Shown here piece after piece: positions 48,625 through 54,837 of a DNA stretch of 64,000 nt. The stretch is from Gallionella sp. (lineage in GTDB: Bacteria > Pseudomonadota > Gammaproteobacteria > Burkholderiales > Gallionellaceae), in assembly GCA_028707275.1 (NCBI GenBank), contig JAQTUP010000002.1:619198-683197 (forward strand), read 5' to 3'. Both the position numbers and the translations under genes were made by a program. The notes under the pieces were generated by a model, which was not told the origin of the DNA, made no database searches, and saw nothing but the letters and a program-made list of their open reading frames with translations. Within the stretch, counting starts at the first letter, position 1. The number at the start of each line of letters is the position of its first letter.

Positions 48625-50289
48625 ATGGCTCAATACGTAATGTCTATGCTCCGCGTGAGCAAAATCGTACCCCCTAAACGTCAAATCATCAAGGACATAT
48701 CCTTGAGTTTCTTTCCCGGAGCCAAAATCGGCCTGCTGGGACTGAACGGTTCGGGTAAATCCACCGTGCTGCGCATCATGGCGGGCGTGGACAAGGAATA
48801 CGACGGCGAGGTGCAACATCTGCCCAACATCCGCATCGGTTATCTGGCGCAGGAGCCGCAACTCAATCCCGAAAACACCGTGCGTCAGGAAGTGGAAGAG
48901 GCGCTGGGCGAAGTGATGCAGGCGCAGAAGAAACTGGATGATGTGTATGCCGCCTATGCCGAGGAAGATGCGGATTTCGACGCGCTCGCCGCCGAACAGG
49001 CACGCCTGGAAAATATCATCGCCGCAGCAGGTTCGGGTTCCGATCAGCTGATGGAAATCGCCGCCGATGCGTTGCGCCTGCCCGAATGGGATGCGCTCAT
49101 CAAAAACCTGTCCGGCGGTGAGAAGCGCCGCGTCGCGCTCTGCAAACTGTTGCTGGACAAGCCTGACATGCTGCTTTTGGACGAGCCGACCAACCATCTG
49201 GATGCGGAATCGGTGGAATGGCTGGAGCAATTTTTAGTGCGCTTCCCCGGTACCGTGGTCGCTGTCACCCATGACCGTTACTTCCTTGACAATGCGGCCG
49301 AATGGATACTCGAATTGGATCGCGGTCACGGCATCCCGTGGAAGGGCAACTATTCCTCATGGCTGGAGCAAAAGGGCGCGCGTCTGGAGACCGAGAACAA
49401 ACAGATCGACGCACACGCCAAGGCCATGAAGCAGGAGTTGGAATGGGTGAGGCAGAACCCGAAGGGCCGTCAGGCCAAATCCAAGGCGCGTATTGCCCGT
49501 TTCGAGGAACTCAATTCCCAGGAACACCAAAAGCGCAACGAGACTCAGGAAATCTTCATTCCGGTGGGCGAGCGTCTGGGTAACGAAGTCATCGAATTCG
49601 ACGGGGTTTCCAAAGCCTACGGCGACCGCCTTTTGATCGACAACCTGAGCTTCAAGGTGCCGCCCGGCGCGATCGTCGGCATCATCGGCCCTAACGGCGC
49701 GGGTAAATCGACGCTGTTCCGCATGATCACCGGCAAGGAAACACCCGATTCGGGCACGGTGAAGATAGGCTCCACCGTCAAAATCGCGCACGTCGATCAG
49801 GCGCGCGACTCGCTGGATAACGACAAGACCGTGTTCGATGCCGTCTCGGGCGGCAATGAAATCCTGACAGTCGGCAAATACGAAACCCCGGCGCGCGCTT
49901 ACATCGGCCGCTTCAACTTCAAGGGCGGGGATCAGGGCAAGCTGGTCGGCCAGCTCTCAGGCGGTGAACGCGGTCGCTTGCATCTGGCGCAGACCTTGAT
50001 CGCGGGCGGCAACGTGCTGTTGCTCGACGAACCGTCCAACGATCTGGACGTGGAAACCTTGCGTGCTTTGGAAGATGCGCTGCTCGAATTTGCCGGTTGC
50101 GTGGCCGTAATCTCCCATGATCGCTGGTTCCTCGACCGTATCGCTACCCACATCCTGGCCTGCGAAGGCGATTCAAAATGGGTGTTCTTCGACGGCAACT
50201 ATCAGGAATACGAAGCCGACAAACGCAAACGTCTGGGCGAAGAAGGCGCGAAACCTAAGCGGATTCGGTACAAGCCAATCAGCCGATAA
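48625..50289 (+). CDS. ettA: energy-dependent translational throttle protein EttA
   Basis: An ABC-F protein that binds the ribosomal E site and gates elongation by ATP level. 554 residues with two ABC domains: LGLNGSGKSTVLRIMAG, LSGGEKRRVALCKLLL, LLLDEPTNHLDAESVEWLE; and IGPNGAGKSTLFRMITG, LSGGERGRLHLAQTL, LLLDEPSNDLDVETLRALE. The start MAQYVMSMLRVSK (48625) is the family's usual one; an upstream ATG at 48571 adds a poor extension. The end, PKRIRYKPISR, is echoed by a second short copy at 50685. Confidence 0.95.
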   Translation: MAQYVMSMLRVSKIVPPKRQIIKDISLSFFPGAKIGLLGLNGSGKSTVLRIMAGVDKEYDGEVQHLPNIRIGYLAQEPQLNPENTVRQEVEEALGEVMQAQKKLDDVYAAYAEEDADFDALAAEQARLENIIAAAGSGSDQLMEIAADALRLPEWDALIKNLSGGEKRRVALCKLLLDKPDMLLLDEPTNHLDAESVEWLEQFLVRFPGTVVAVTHDRYFLDNAAEWILELDRGHGIPWKGNYSSWLEQKGARLETENKQIDAHAKAMKQELEWVRQNPKGRQAKSKARIARFEELNSQEHQKRNETQEIFIPVGERLGNEVIEFDGVSKAYGDRLLIDNLSFKVPPGAIVGIIGPNGAGKSTLFRMITGKETPDSGTVKIGSTVKIAHVDQARDSLDNDKTVFDAVSGGNEILTVGKYETPARAYIGRFNFKGGDQGKLVGQLSGGERGRLHLAQTLIAGGNVLLLDEPSNDLDVETLRALEDALLEFAGCVAVISHDRWFLDRIATHILACEGDSKWVFFDGNYQEYEADKRKRLGEEGAKPKRIRYKPISR

Positions 50290-50306
50290 GGTTTTACCGG
50301 TGGCAG

Positions 50307-50556
50307 ACCGGCAGCTGGCGGCTTTCTTTTGTGTCGCCAATAGAAAGCCGCGAAAGAAAAGGCGACCCCGGTTTGCCGCGTTTGCCTGCCTGTTTACAGA
50401 CAGGCAAACGTGCCCTCGATAGTCGCAAACAAGCGGGGCTGTGCAACTCGCACGATCCGCTCGCGGCCACGTGCTCAAACAGTGCTCGCCTAAAAGCACC
50501 GCTTGTTTACCTTTCTACCTGTATACAGGCAGTCTTCGGCGGCGCACAGGGGATGA
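50307..50556. repeat. dispersed repeat copy 2, after ettA
   Basis: GCGGCTTTCTTTTG/CAATAGAAAGCCGC hairpin at 50317-50350, then a stretch with GCAACTCGCACGATCCGCTC and GTGCTCAAACAGTGCTCGCC, matching copy 1 nearly base for base and in the same direction. Two short palindromes of the CCTGCCTGTTT type (about 50385-50410) and CTGTATACAG (about 50519) lie within. Confidence 0.8.
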
Positions 50557-50684
50557 GGGTGGTACTTATGGTGAGAATTATTAACACAGATAGCTTAGAC
50601 TCGTCATTTCAGAAAAGCTGCGCTGTCAGCCGTACTGGCACAGGTACATCGCTTTGAGCCAATGGCGGCTTGATGATGGGCGAA

Positions 50685-50714
50685 TGGATTCGCTACAAGC
50701 CGATTAGCCGATGA
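50685..50714 (+). pseudogene. short duplicate of the ettA 3' end
   Basis: Nine codons plus a stop reading WIRYKPISR match the EttA ending RIRYKPISR, with most DNA bases conserved, 400 bases downstream of the real end and on the far side of the dispersed repeat. It has no upstream coding extension. A remnant of duplication or recombination. Confidence 0.5.
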
Positions 50715-50818
50715 TGTAGGTTCAGCACGATAACAATAATGAAGTTCTATTTCGACGGATTGTCATTAATTATTGCCATGCGTTTTTATAAATAAATCCA
50801 ATATTTCTGAAGGTAAAC

Positions 50819-52672
50819 ATGAGCTTAACGATACTGCTTAATGATCAAATTGATAAACTGTTTAAAGCTAATACGGAGCTAAATTCTGTAAATAAGAATC
50901 AGTTTGAGATTGCAGTCGTCTCGTTTGCAAATTCAAAGTACCTACACGGAATTGAATTTGATGACCTCGTGGATGGAGTTATGGGCGAAGGGGGGGATGA
51001 AGGCATAGATCACTGCTACATCTTCTGTAACGGCATGTTAGTTGCGGATGAAAGTCATCCCATAAACAAAGAAAGTCACGTAAAAGTTAAATTCTTTCAG
51101 ACAAAGAAAGAGCAAGGCTTTTCGACGGATGGTTTTAGAAAAGTAAAAGAAGGCATTGAAGAAATCTTCAATCTTGATATTGATTTGGATAAGCTCCAAA
51201 AGATTGGTGCAAACAAAGATATATTGGACAAGGCAGATCTAATTCGGCGACTTTTTAGAAAAGCTAGCTTAGAAAGGGCCAAATTTAGTTGTGAGGTGTT
51301 TTATGTGACTGCTGCACCAGAAACAAAACTGTCTGAAAAAATTAAGCATTTGGCGAACGAACTCAAGGAAAACAAACTTCGAATTCCCTTTGAATTTTAT
51401 TTCTGGGGCGCGCAAGAAGTCTTAGATCTGACTGAAGGTGAAGATGAGACCATCGAGGTCCAATTCAACTCCCAGCCACTCGAAATTAAAGAAAGAGGTG
51501 TTCAGACTAATGGGTTTTCCGGCTTTGTGACTGGTAATAACATTGTCCGGTGCCTACAGGACGAAAAGGGGGCATTCAAGGCTCATCTAACTGAGGGCAA
51601 TGTGCGATTTTTCCTTGGTGAAGATATAAAGATAAACAATTCGATAATTGAGACGGCCAAAGATAAAAGCAAGGCAGAGAATTTTTGGGCAATGAACAAT
51701 GGATTAACAATAATTGGAGATTCGATAACTCCATTGGGAAACAACCAATATGCCGTACTGAATCCGCAAATCGTAAATGGGTGCCAAACAATTCACTGTT
51801 TGTATCATGCCTACAAAGAATTAGATGCACTTCCCGACTTACTTAAGATATTTGTGAAGCTTGTCAATACAGATAACTTAGATGTGCAAACGGACATAAT
51901 TAGCGCAACCAACTCTCAAAATCCTGTTAAGTCGGCAAGCTTAAAGGCAAACGACAATATCCAAAGAAATATTGAGAAGCATCTTAAAAAGTCTGAAATC
52001 TATTACGAGAGAAGAGAGAGCTATTACAAGAAACAGGGGTTCACGGGCAATAAAGTTATTGGCCTTTTAAAAATGGCACAAATAATTCATACGGTAGTAA
52101 ACAAAGAATCCATCGTGGCCTTGAATGATACGGCAACTTTGTTTGAGACATCTTCAAAATACGATTCCATATTTAGTGACTTGGCGGATTTTGATATTTA
52201 TACCTTTGCAACCATCCTCTATCAAAAAATATGGTCGTTAAAGAACTCGGATCTCAGGAATAACGAATACCCCGAGGATAAGCGTGATTTGATATCAAAG
52301 GGTGGCCTTGTATTTCTTCATTGCATGAGTAGCTTGATACTTTCGAAAGCAGAATTTAAAACGGATGAGGACAAAAAAACCGAGCTTTGTACCAAAAATA
52401 TTGTTATTTCTGTACCGGCAAGAAAAAATGAGTTCGTGAAGCGAAAGGAGAGCGCGCTTAATCTTATTAAGGATGATCATTACCTAAAAGATCGCTATGA
52501 AGAAGCGAAGGAAATTCTAGAGAAAGCTGCAGCAAAGTATTCATTAGTGGCAGGTAAATCTAAATCGTCATTATTAAAGAATAGAAATTTTGACAGGGAC
52601 TACTTAAGGCCGGAAATTGATGCATTTCTACAAGCACAATTGAAGAAAGCAGCGCTGCAAGAGCCCGCGTAG
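50819..52672 (+). CDS. AIPR-family abortive phage infection protein
   Basis: 617 residues of the AIPR (abortive infection phage resistance) family. The N-terminal part looks like a PD-(D/E)xK/Mrr-type nuclease (GEGGDEGIDHCYIFCN, then VKFFQTKKEQGFS as D and QxK). The family core has FWAMNNGLTIIGDSITPLGN and VLNPQIVNGCQTIHCLYHAY, followed by ISATNSQNPVKSASLKAND. GAAGG site before the ATG. Base composition and codon use are much richer in A/T than any neighbour, and inverted copies of a dispersed repeat lie on both sides, so it is probably acquired. Defence function is inferred from the family. Confidence 0.9.
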   Translation: MSLTILLNDQIDKLFKANTELNSVNKNQFEIAVVSFANSKYLHGIEFDDLVDGVMGEGGDEGIDHCYIFCNGMLVADESHPINKESHVKVKFFQTKKEQGFSTDGFRKVKEGIEEIFNLDIDLDKLQKIGANKDILDKADLIRRLFRKASLERAKFSCEVFYVTAAPETKLSEKIKHLANELKENKLRIPFEFYFWGAQEVLDLTEGEDETIEVQFNSQPLEIKERGVQTNGFSGFVTGNNIVRCLQDEKGAFKAHLTEGNVRFFLGEDIKINNSIIETAKDKSKAENFWAMNNGLTIIGDSITPLGNNQYAVLNPQIVNGCQTIHCLYHAYKELDALPDLLKIFVKLVNTDNLDVQTDIISATNSQNPVKSASLKANDNIQRNIEKHLKKSEIYYERRESYYKKQGFTGNKVIGLLKMAQIIHTVVNKESIVALNDTATLFETSSKYDSIFSDLADFDIYTFATILYQKIWSLKNSDLRNNEYPEDKRDLISKGGLVFLHCMSSLILSKAEFKTDEDKKTELCTKNIVISVPARKNEFVKRKESALNLIKDDHYLKDRYEEAKEILEKAAAKYSLVAGKSKSSLLKNRNFDRDYLRPEIDAFLQAQLKKAALQEPA

Positions 52673-52799
52673 GGCGCACAGAAGCTCGGTGTCCGGTCTC
52701 GCATTAATGCATAATCGGCCGAAATATTCTCAAGATTCCGCGTGGAAATGAAGTCTATCAATTCCGGCAAGCTCCGCGCCATGAGTTCCAACCCCCTGC

Positions 52800-53023
52800 G
52801 CGCCGCCGAGTAGCGCAGGCTGATCAGGGGAGGTCGGCGAGGACTGTTTGAGCGCGTAGCGTGAGTTCCGCAGCCGCCTGAACAGACGAGCAACGCAGGG
52901 AATCCCGTAGGGATGGCGTATCGGGGCGGCGTTTCTTTAGTGACTTTCTTTGGCCGTGCAAAGAAAGCCACCGGCTGCGGGGCCGCTCCCCGCTAGCCTT
53001 TCGGTCTGCCACCGGCAAAGCCT
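52800..53023. repeat. dispersed repeat copy 3, inverted
   Basis: GACTGTTTGAGCGCGTAGCG (about 52840-52859) and GTGACTTTCTTTGGCCGTGC (52940-52959) are the reverse-direction counterparts of copies 1 and 2, more diverged. It closes the AIPR gene on the right and abuts the stop of the radical SAM gene. Nothing else was seen in 52673-53027. Confidence 0.65.
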
Positions 53024-53027
53024 GACC

Positions 53028-54554
53028 CTATGCTTCCTTGGTCAGGTGGCGGGATTGCCGGCTCGCCGGGCTAACCTGCCTGGCTTTTCGGGTGTCATCC
53101 TTAACCGGTTTTGCGGCCTTCAGAAACGCCGGAATTTCCTTGCAACCCGACAAAATAAAGTCGCGCTCCACCGCTGCCTGAGCCTCTGTCTGCGGCACCG
53201 ACAGGCATTCGATCATTCCCCGGCAAACCTGATCAAACAACCGATCCAGCGAAATCTGATGCGTCTTGCGGATGGTGGCATAAAGCCAGTCGGAGAACGC
53301 CAGAAAATGTGCAAACGGACTGTCGCCCAACAACAGGGGTAAGGCCTGCGGGAAGCGACCGGAGTTGGCGACCAGATCCCAGTAGCGTGCAAAGCGCACC
53401 AGGCGCTGCATGGTATCGAAGTCGATGCGATCGGTGGCGAGTATGGTGTAGGGCGCGTAGGGGGTGTAGCGCATGTCATACGTTTCGGTATGGCGGATGA
53501 TGTTGGTGCCGCGCAGGCGTTTTAATACGCCGACCTGAATTTCCTGCTGATTGAGGGCAACCAGGCGGTCGAAGCCTTGCGCAAAGCTGTTCATGTCTTC
53601 GCCGGGCAGGCCGATGATGAGATCGACATGAACATGCGCGTGGCTCTCGATGCGCAGCCAATGCAAGTTTTCTTCTGTTTTCGGTGTGTCCTGCTTGCGC
53701 GAGATGAGCGCCTGAACGTCCGCGTTGAAAGTCTGGATGCCGACCTCGAATTGCAGCGATCCCTCGGGGAAGCGCAAGATCAGCTCTTTCAACTGGTCGG
53801 GCAGGTGATCCGGGATCACCTCGAAATGCACGAATAATTTATCGTCTAATCGCGCCAGAAAGAATTCAAGGATACGCGCACTGGCCTTGATGTTAAGGTT
53901 GAAGGTGCGGTCTACAAACTTGAACTGGCGTGCGCCGCGCTCGTACAGGCGGGCCATCTCGGCCAGGAACAGGTCAAGATCGAAGGCCCAGGCCGTCTTG
54001 TCGAGCGAGGAGAGGCAGAATTCGCATTTGAACGGGCAGCCGCGCGAGGCTTCGACGTACAGGGTGCGGTTGGCGATATCGTTGTCGTCGTACAGCGCAT
54101 AGGGCAGTTTGATTTCGGCAAGCTGAGGCTGGAGGCCGGCGATGATTTTCTGTGCCTGCGGGCGCTTTAGCAGCAGCTCGCGGCAGAGTTTTGGAAAGCT
54201 GATGTCGCCCCAACCTGTAATCACATAATCCGCCAGCCGCACGATTTCCTGCTGCTCGCACTCAAAACTCACTTCCGGCCCGCCCAGCACCACGATAATT
54301 TCCGGGGCGACGCACTTGAGTAGCGCCACCACCCGGGTAATCTCGACCACATTCCAGATGTAGACGCCGAAGCCGACAATTTTTGGTTTCGCTGCCAGTA
54401 TGGACTCGATAATTTCTTCCGGCCTGTTCTGCAGGATGAACTCCATGATTTGCGTGTCCTGCTCGTGTTCGCCCATATTGGCGGCGAGGTAACGCAAACC
54501 AAGCGAAGCGTGGTGATAGCGTGCGTTGAGGGTGGCGAGAACGATGGTGGACAT
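53028..54554 (-). CDS. B12-binding-domain radical SAM protein
   Basis: 508 residues: an N-terminal cobalamin-binding-type Rossmann domain (ATLNARYHHASLGLRYLAAN, KIVGFGVYIWN, VVLGGPEVSFE), a radical SAM core with GCPFKCEFC (CxxxCxxC, about residue 185), and a C-terminal DUF4080-like region (RLVRFARYWDLVANSGRFPQ). Members are cobalamin-dependent methylases or related, with unknown substrates; the link to the B12 operon is only cofactor need. Its last 20 or so residues (ARQVSPASRQSRHLTKEA) look non-conserved and border a repeat. Confidence 0.9.
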   Translation of the reverse strand: MSTIVLATLNARYHHASLGLRYLAANMGEHEQDTQIMEFILQNRPEEIIESILAAKPKIVGFGVYIWNVVEITRVVALLKCVAPEIIVVLGGPEVSFECEQQEIVRLADYVITGWGDISFPKLCRELLLKRPQAQKIIAGLQPQLAEIKLPYALYDDNDIANRTLYVEASRGCPFKCEFCLSSLDKTAWAFDLDLFLAEMARLYERGARQFKFVDRTFNLNIKASARILEFFLARLDDKLFVHFEVIPDHLPDQLKELILRFPEGSLQFEVGIQTFNADVQALISRKQDTPKTEENLHWLRIESHAHVHVDLIIGLPGEDMNSFAQGFDRLVALNQQEIQVGVLKRLRGTNIIRHTETYDMRYTPYAPYTILATDRIDFDTMQRLVRFARYWDLVANSGRFPQALPLLLGDSPFAHFLAFSDWLYATIRKTHQISLDRLFDQVCRGMIECLSVPQTEAQAAVERDFILSGCKEIPAFLKAAKPVKDDTRKARQVSPASRQSRHLTKEA

Positions 54555-54604
54555 ACGCGGGAAGTGAGCTGAAGAGCCGCTATTTTACGCTACTTCCACG
54601 GCAA

Positions 54605-54837
54605 ATCAGGGGCGGCGTTTCTTTGGTGACTTTGGCCACGCAAAGAAAGTCACCGGCGGCGGAGCCGCTCCCCGCCAGGCTTTCGCGACAACGTTCACCG
54701 CGAAGCGCCGTCCGGCAACGGGCATAGGGGTGTCAGCCTCCCCTCCCCTCGCCTCAATCCTCTCACGCAAGCGTGAGAGGATGCGAATGAGAAAAGCAAT
54801 GATCAATCCTTGAAACGCTGCGCGTGTTTCACGTTAA
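54605..54837. repeat. dispersed repeat copy 4 plus perfect palindrome and TTTCACGTTAA end
   Basis: GTGACTTTGGCCACGCAAAGAAAGTCAC-like hairpin (about 54625-54652; arms GTGACTTT and AAAGTCAC) resembles copy 3. Then a perfect 12-base stem ATCCTCTCACGC/GCGTGAGAGGAT (54757-54782) with loop AA, and TTTCACGTTAA at 54827-54837. The 376-base gap 54555-54931 contains no gene. Confidence 0.65.

Follow-up and report, generated by a model that had tools for sequence, protein, structure and literature searches.

The low-GC AIPR gene that lies behind ettA in this Gallionella sp. genome is probably (a chance of roughly two in three) one cargo of a defence hotspot that is anchored at ettA and was built by stepwise displacement of ettA tails, as judged from comparison of the sequences. 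The stretch behind ettA is occupied by different toxin-antitoxin and defence genes in different relatives, and copies of the ettA 3' end lie displaced among them. The features of the interval between ettA and the gene for a B12-binding radical SAM protein (rSAM gene) are collected in Table 1; the window is the whole stretch of 64,000 nucleotides that was analysed.

Table 1. Features of the ettA-rSAM interval and its borders, in window positions.
Feature	Position	Strand	Remarks
ettA, ABC-F translational throttle protein	48637..50289	+	matches the NCBIfam EttA equivalog (E=5e-292); insertions recur at its 3' end
Repeat copy 2, interior subfamily A	50297..50560	+	without terminal inverted repeats; starts 7 nt past the ettA stop
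Displaced ettA 3' end, last 30 nt up to the stop codon	50683..50712	+	nhmmer, 18.3 bits
AIPR/AbiU-like defence gene, 617 aa, 38.4% GC	50819..52672	+	Pfam and PADLOC matches
Repeat copy 3, interior subfamily B	~52760..53020	-	without terminal inverted repeats; starts ~9 nt past the rSAM stop
B12-binding radical SAM (rSAM) gene	53028..54554	-	accessory in the genus
Partial repeat copy, subfamily B, upstream of the rSAM gene	54598..54682	-	

The AIPR gene differs sharply from its surroundings, as the preliminary description of this DNA had recognized: its GC content is 38.4%, against 57.8% in ettA, 56.9% in the rSAM gene and 55.6% in the window. Its product passes the Pfam cut-off for the AIPR family (PF10592, 124.9 bits against 25, E=7e-36) and matches the PADLOC AbiU model with E=1e-106; from this family membership, it is most likely an abortive-infection effector. 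Assignment to the MZA anti-phage system (as MzaE) is not supported: the protein reached 46 bits against an equivalog cut-off of 1050, and no MutL or Z1 genes were present among the genes adjacent to it. Recent acquisition of the gene is supported, because none of the 75 other genomes searched in the genus yielded a close homologue. Close relatives of the protein were likewise not found in GTDB contigs and viral contigs, and its distant relatives, 25-29% identical, are located on plasmids and phages. A sequence search revealed no credible relative of solved structure, and single-sequence structure prediction was unusable, with a mean pLDDT of 35.

Between repeat copy 2 and the AIPR gene lies a displaced ettA 3' end (50683-50712), which the preliminary description had missed. 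Against a profile built from the final 150 nt of ettA, this short tail of 30 nt scored 18.3 bits, against a best score of 10.8 in 1000 dinucleotide shuffles of the interval and of 6.8 bits in 308 kb of other DNA from the same genome. The stretch that separates it from ettA contains repeat copy 2 only, with no evident gene. Beyond this locus, the sequence past the ettA stop codon is different in every congener compared (18, later about 35), and copies of the ettA end recur further downstream in many of them. Displaced tails in the 15 loci that could be oriented by ettA, the window included, all lie downstream and on the ettA strand. Of 64 congeners with a tail match, 16 have at least two same-strand ettA tails within 15 kb, which toxin-antitoxin, restriction or defence genes separate. 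The remainder of the order gave 3 of 138 (Fisher p=1e-6), and the corresponding comparison within the genus for tails of pepD gave 1 of 38 (p=0.002 against the ettA count); most of these relatives are draft metagenome assemblies. The tails mostly end at the ettA stop codon, while their left edges fall anywhere between 29 and 216 nt before it; of the 16 long tails, only 3 are most similar to the ettA of their own host. Cargo genes are separated by displaced 3' fragments of their anchor gene, all in the same orientation, which is one mark of a sequential-displacement array. In two loci (L190, 4495-4703; L191, 2732-2901), an insertion of 46-57 bp, which resembles a small repeat with site preference, interrupts the displaced tails some 50 nt ahead of the stop.

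The preliminary description had proposed looking for the empty site after ettA in related genomes. This comparison showed a variable position, at which defence and toxin-antitoxin genes are exchanged across relatives: the content of the ettA-rSAM interval differs among the present genome, G010, G015, G003, G011 and G093, and the rSAM gene forms its right border in the closest relatives. Relatives matched through the radical SAM protein carry the names Gallionella and Sideroxydans. Forty cargo proteins were scanned, and most of those with a family match are of toxin-antitoxin, restriction or abortive-infection type; the families comprise PIN, Phd/YefM, zeta, BrnT, HigB-type, DUF2442/DUF4160/DUF2281, GmrSD, Eco57I with XhoI, and OLD-type ATPase. 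None of the 40 belongs to an integrase or transposase family. A different AIPR gene, ~21% identical, occurs in G014 behind ettA and an antitoxin-like gene. In G015, an Eco57I-type methylase and an XhoI-type endonuclease follow ettA, and in G163, a member of another family, such a pair lies between two ettA fragments, one of 567 nt and one of about 150 nt; the two pairs share 84% and 89% identity, close to the 86% of EttA itself. The G163 locus (L297 on C13, 1058-8628) has the 567-nt fragment (92%) and the second tail bracketing a 743-aa protein along with the restriction pair.

The order of insertion can be read from three of these genomes. G010 and G011 carry a Phd/PIN pair immediately 3' of ettA, and G003 has a zeta-toxin gene between ettA and a displaced tail, after which the same Phd/PIN pair follows; the entry point of new cargo is therefore adjacent to ettA. 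Read in this way, the AIPR gene, which lies behind a displaced tail, is the older insert in the window. G011 also holds a 3' fragment of the rSAM gene behind ettA (L101, C51) and an intact copy elsewhere (L116, C22), so that the rSAM gene, too, has been moved or duplicated.

We propose that foreign toxin-antitoxin, restriction and abortive-infection genes would enter directly behind ettA in these Gallionella and Sideroxydans relatives. With each insertion, ettA would remain complete ahead of the new cargo, and the previous ettA 3' end would be shifted downstream together with the older cargo; repeated events would yield an array that starts with ettA and the new cargo, followed by the old ettA tail and then the older cargo. 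On one side, integration may rely on homologous recombination within the conserved 3' region of ettA, and on the other side on a non-homologous join; this would correspond to homology-facilitated illegitimate recombination, and finished arrays could then spread by means of ettA homology. The repeats flanking the AIPR gene would be elements scattered near gene 3' ends rather than a vehicle, and the 390 bp that contain copy 2 may be a later arrival or the remnant of a later cargo. A one-sided recombination with a non-homologous join fits both the scatter of the left edges, which is expected for joins that are not site-specific and speaks against one fixed crossover site, and the low share of long tails best matched by the host's own ettA, which is evidence against simple copying of the present gene. 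In species pairs that share their first cassette, the ettA 3' end is not unusually similar (p=0.79), so that replacement of the tail by that of the donor is not demonstrated, and a test of the resemblance of displaced tails to close relatives gave a mixed result. In view of these two results, the mechanism is one that we infer, whereas the hotspot and the displaced tails themselves are demonstrated.

Other origins of the tails have to be weighed against stepwise displacement. An integrase encoded elsewhere could use the ettA 3' end as the attachment site for site-specific cassettes, as in integrons or SCC elements; the uniform orientation of the tails behind ettA and their usual end at the stop codon would agree with this, as would the small units, some 0.7-0.9 kb long, that lie between tails in G085, G079 and G081. 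We nevertheless consider it unlikely, given that the left edges spread over about 190 nt instead of marking one crossover point and that recombinase families are absent among the 40 cargo proteins, while the right edge at the stop is uninformative, being expected anyway because sequence past any stop diverges. Quite unlikely, too, is a cassette system lacking its own integrase, in which the ettA 3' end would serve as a portable recombination site that adds toxin-antitoxin and defence genes singly and would thereby give iron-oxidizing bacteria, and certain further families of the order, an integron-like defence array. A coincidence, in which the AIPR gene was inserted by unrelated means into ordinary intergenic space and the tail is the leftover of a local duplication, appears very unlikely: local duplication of gene ends does occur, as with pepD in G022, and three long tails do match the host's own ettA best, but ettA tails are in strong excess in the genus relative to the rest of the order and to pepD, the cargo is repeatedly of defence or toxin-antitoxin type, and the second AIPR gene of G014 stands at the same place. 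In the G022 case (L300 on C163, 1819-1923 and 3357-3461), a 105-nt pepD tail is displaced 1.4 kb downstream at 96% identity, with a permease-like gene inverted between the gene end and the displaced tail; the process is thus not strictly tied to ettA.

The preliminary description had instead regarded the interval as a composite, transposase-free cargo unit, in which the facing repeats would be the ends for a transposase acting in trans and the AIPR gene its cargo. This reading is highly improbable. Copies 2 and 3 are real, belong to the same family and face each other, as had been stated, yet they do not form a matched pair: their interiors are identical at 156 of 208 aligned bases (~75%) with large gaps, copy 2 groups with a subfamily of ~45 copies and copy 3 with one of ~8, and the repeat search lists no inverted pair for them. 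Both lack a terminal inverted repeat, and inspection of the boundary sequences revealed no target duplication around the pair. The two copies face each other because ettA and the rSAM gene are convergent and each copy abuts a stop codon; relatives in which the interval varies are mostly without the repeats.

The family to which these copies belong was scored in 3.17 Mb of the genome, where the counts are lower bounds; it comprises at least 54 copies and is therefore far beyond chance. Most copies are miniature transposable elements of ~400 bp with CTGATGTTACGCA at both termini and target duplications of 5-6 bp (for example, TTCGTA at C12:651223). The terminal inverted repeat is present at the 5' end in 33 of the 54 copies and at the 3' end in 40. 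Ends of the CTGATGTTACGCA type gave 118 genomic matches and the reversed control 2, and among the first 100 of the 118 matches listed, no transposase was tied to such an end. As a whole, the family has the properties of MITEs, namely terminal inverted repeats, short target duplications and neither a transposase reading frame nor other coding capacity; it differs from them in that 3 copies combine the same GC-rich core with a second end type, GGTTCTATGTGA, and in that copies 2 and 3 carry neither of the two end types. The repeats match no known RNA family in Rfam above the cut-off. A preferred location downstream of same-strand genes was also considered, but 31 of 54 copies was not convincing. 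Displaced gene tails were also sought at other repeat loci of the genome, where self-comparison gave a few short repeats.

The arrangement of the repeats across the genome offers the composite reading some support. Seven of the ten repeat pairs less than 3 kb apart face inward, against 2.5 expected (p=0.0035, post hoc), an excess that the ettA hotspot leaves unexplained, and three of the seven enclose a low-GC, stand-alone gene of defence type (AIPR, ApeA-like, Mrr-like). The preliminary description had suggested looking for other cargo between inverted copies: besides the AIPR gene, the ApeA-like gene and the weakly Mrr-like gene, the seven pairs enclose the cytochrome bc1 genes or small open reading frames, or are empty. 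Among the seven, however, no composite structure, with intact outer inverted repeats and a duplication outside only, was recognised, and in inward pairs with intact inverted repeats, each copy bears its own pair. The ApeA-like HEPN gene is a stand-alone defence gene of 45% GC between inward-facing repeats (C1:85895-88271, L131); against carriage by the repeats, G028 has the repeat at the same rhlE 3' end and in the same orientation, with no ApeA gene nearby. An 87-bp stretch beside rhlE (L131, 4991-5077; also L305 and L307) is 93-94% identical in the present genome, G010 and G003, and no gene was recognised in it. The third gene, of 44% GC and with weak similarity to Mrr-type endonucleases, also lies between inward-facing repeats (C1:119412-120677, L148). 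In G032 and G011, 40-205 bp separate the two genes flanking this locus, and the gap contains no repeat and no cargo; this empty site shows an insertion but not its vehicle. Of the earlier proposal that defence genes are shuffled between sites in this lineage, the exchange of genes at the position after ettA holds, whereas the role of the repeats as vehicle is not supported, since the ends and the duplication are missing.

The entry of defence genes that have no mobility gene of their own into fixed chromosomal sites is an open question. Displaced ettA ends provide a readable record of each step, including its order, orientation and joining point, and the question thus becomes testable by array dating, donor searches and estimates of recombination rates. 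Displaced ends of a neighbouring core gene also constitute a simple signature by which more such hotspots could be found. At the same time, the locus advises caution, as a defence gene is not necessarily carried by the repeats beside it.

No published ettA insertion hotspot was found in the literature searched, and the array can be compared with three known systems. Integron arrays also grow stepwise at one end, move older cargo back and consist of short units; the ettA arrays differ from them in having no integrase among the 40 cargo proteins, no fixed recombination site and variable left edges. The Pseudomonas aeruginosa hotspots cDHS1 and cDHS2 (PMC10250203) likewise hold defence genes between fixed core genes, with many sites devoid of mobility genes, and spread through flanking homology has been proposed for them. 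They are, however, far larger (median 26 kb) and tied to tRNA/tmRNA landing sites and transposases, and displaced anchor-gene ends are not described in the part of that study drawn on here. The type VI effector-immunity arrays of Vibrio cholerae, for which homology-facilitated illegitimate recombination has been proposed and no integrase is known, share both the insertion of modules at the 3' end of a fixed gene, which shifts old ends and cargo downstream, and the resulting arrays of remnants (PMC5361080); the C-terminal displacement of Rhs proteins, cited there, is a related case. In V. cholerae, the anchor is a toxin that is itself replaced (PMC5361080), whereas here a housekeeping translation factor is kept intact and the cargo consists of toxin-antitoxin, restriction and abortive-infection genes.
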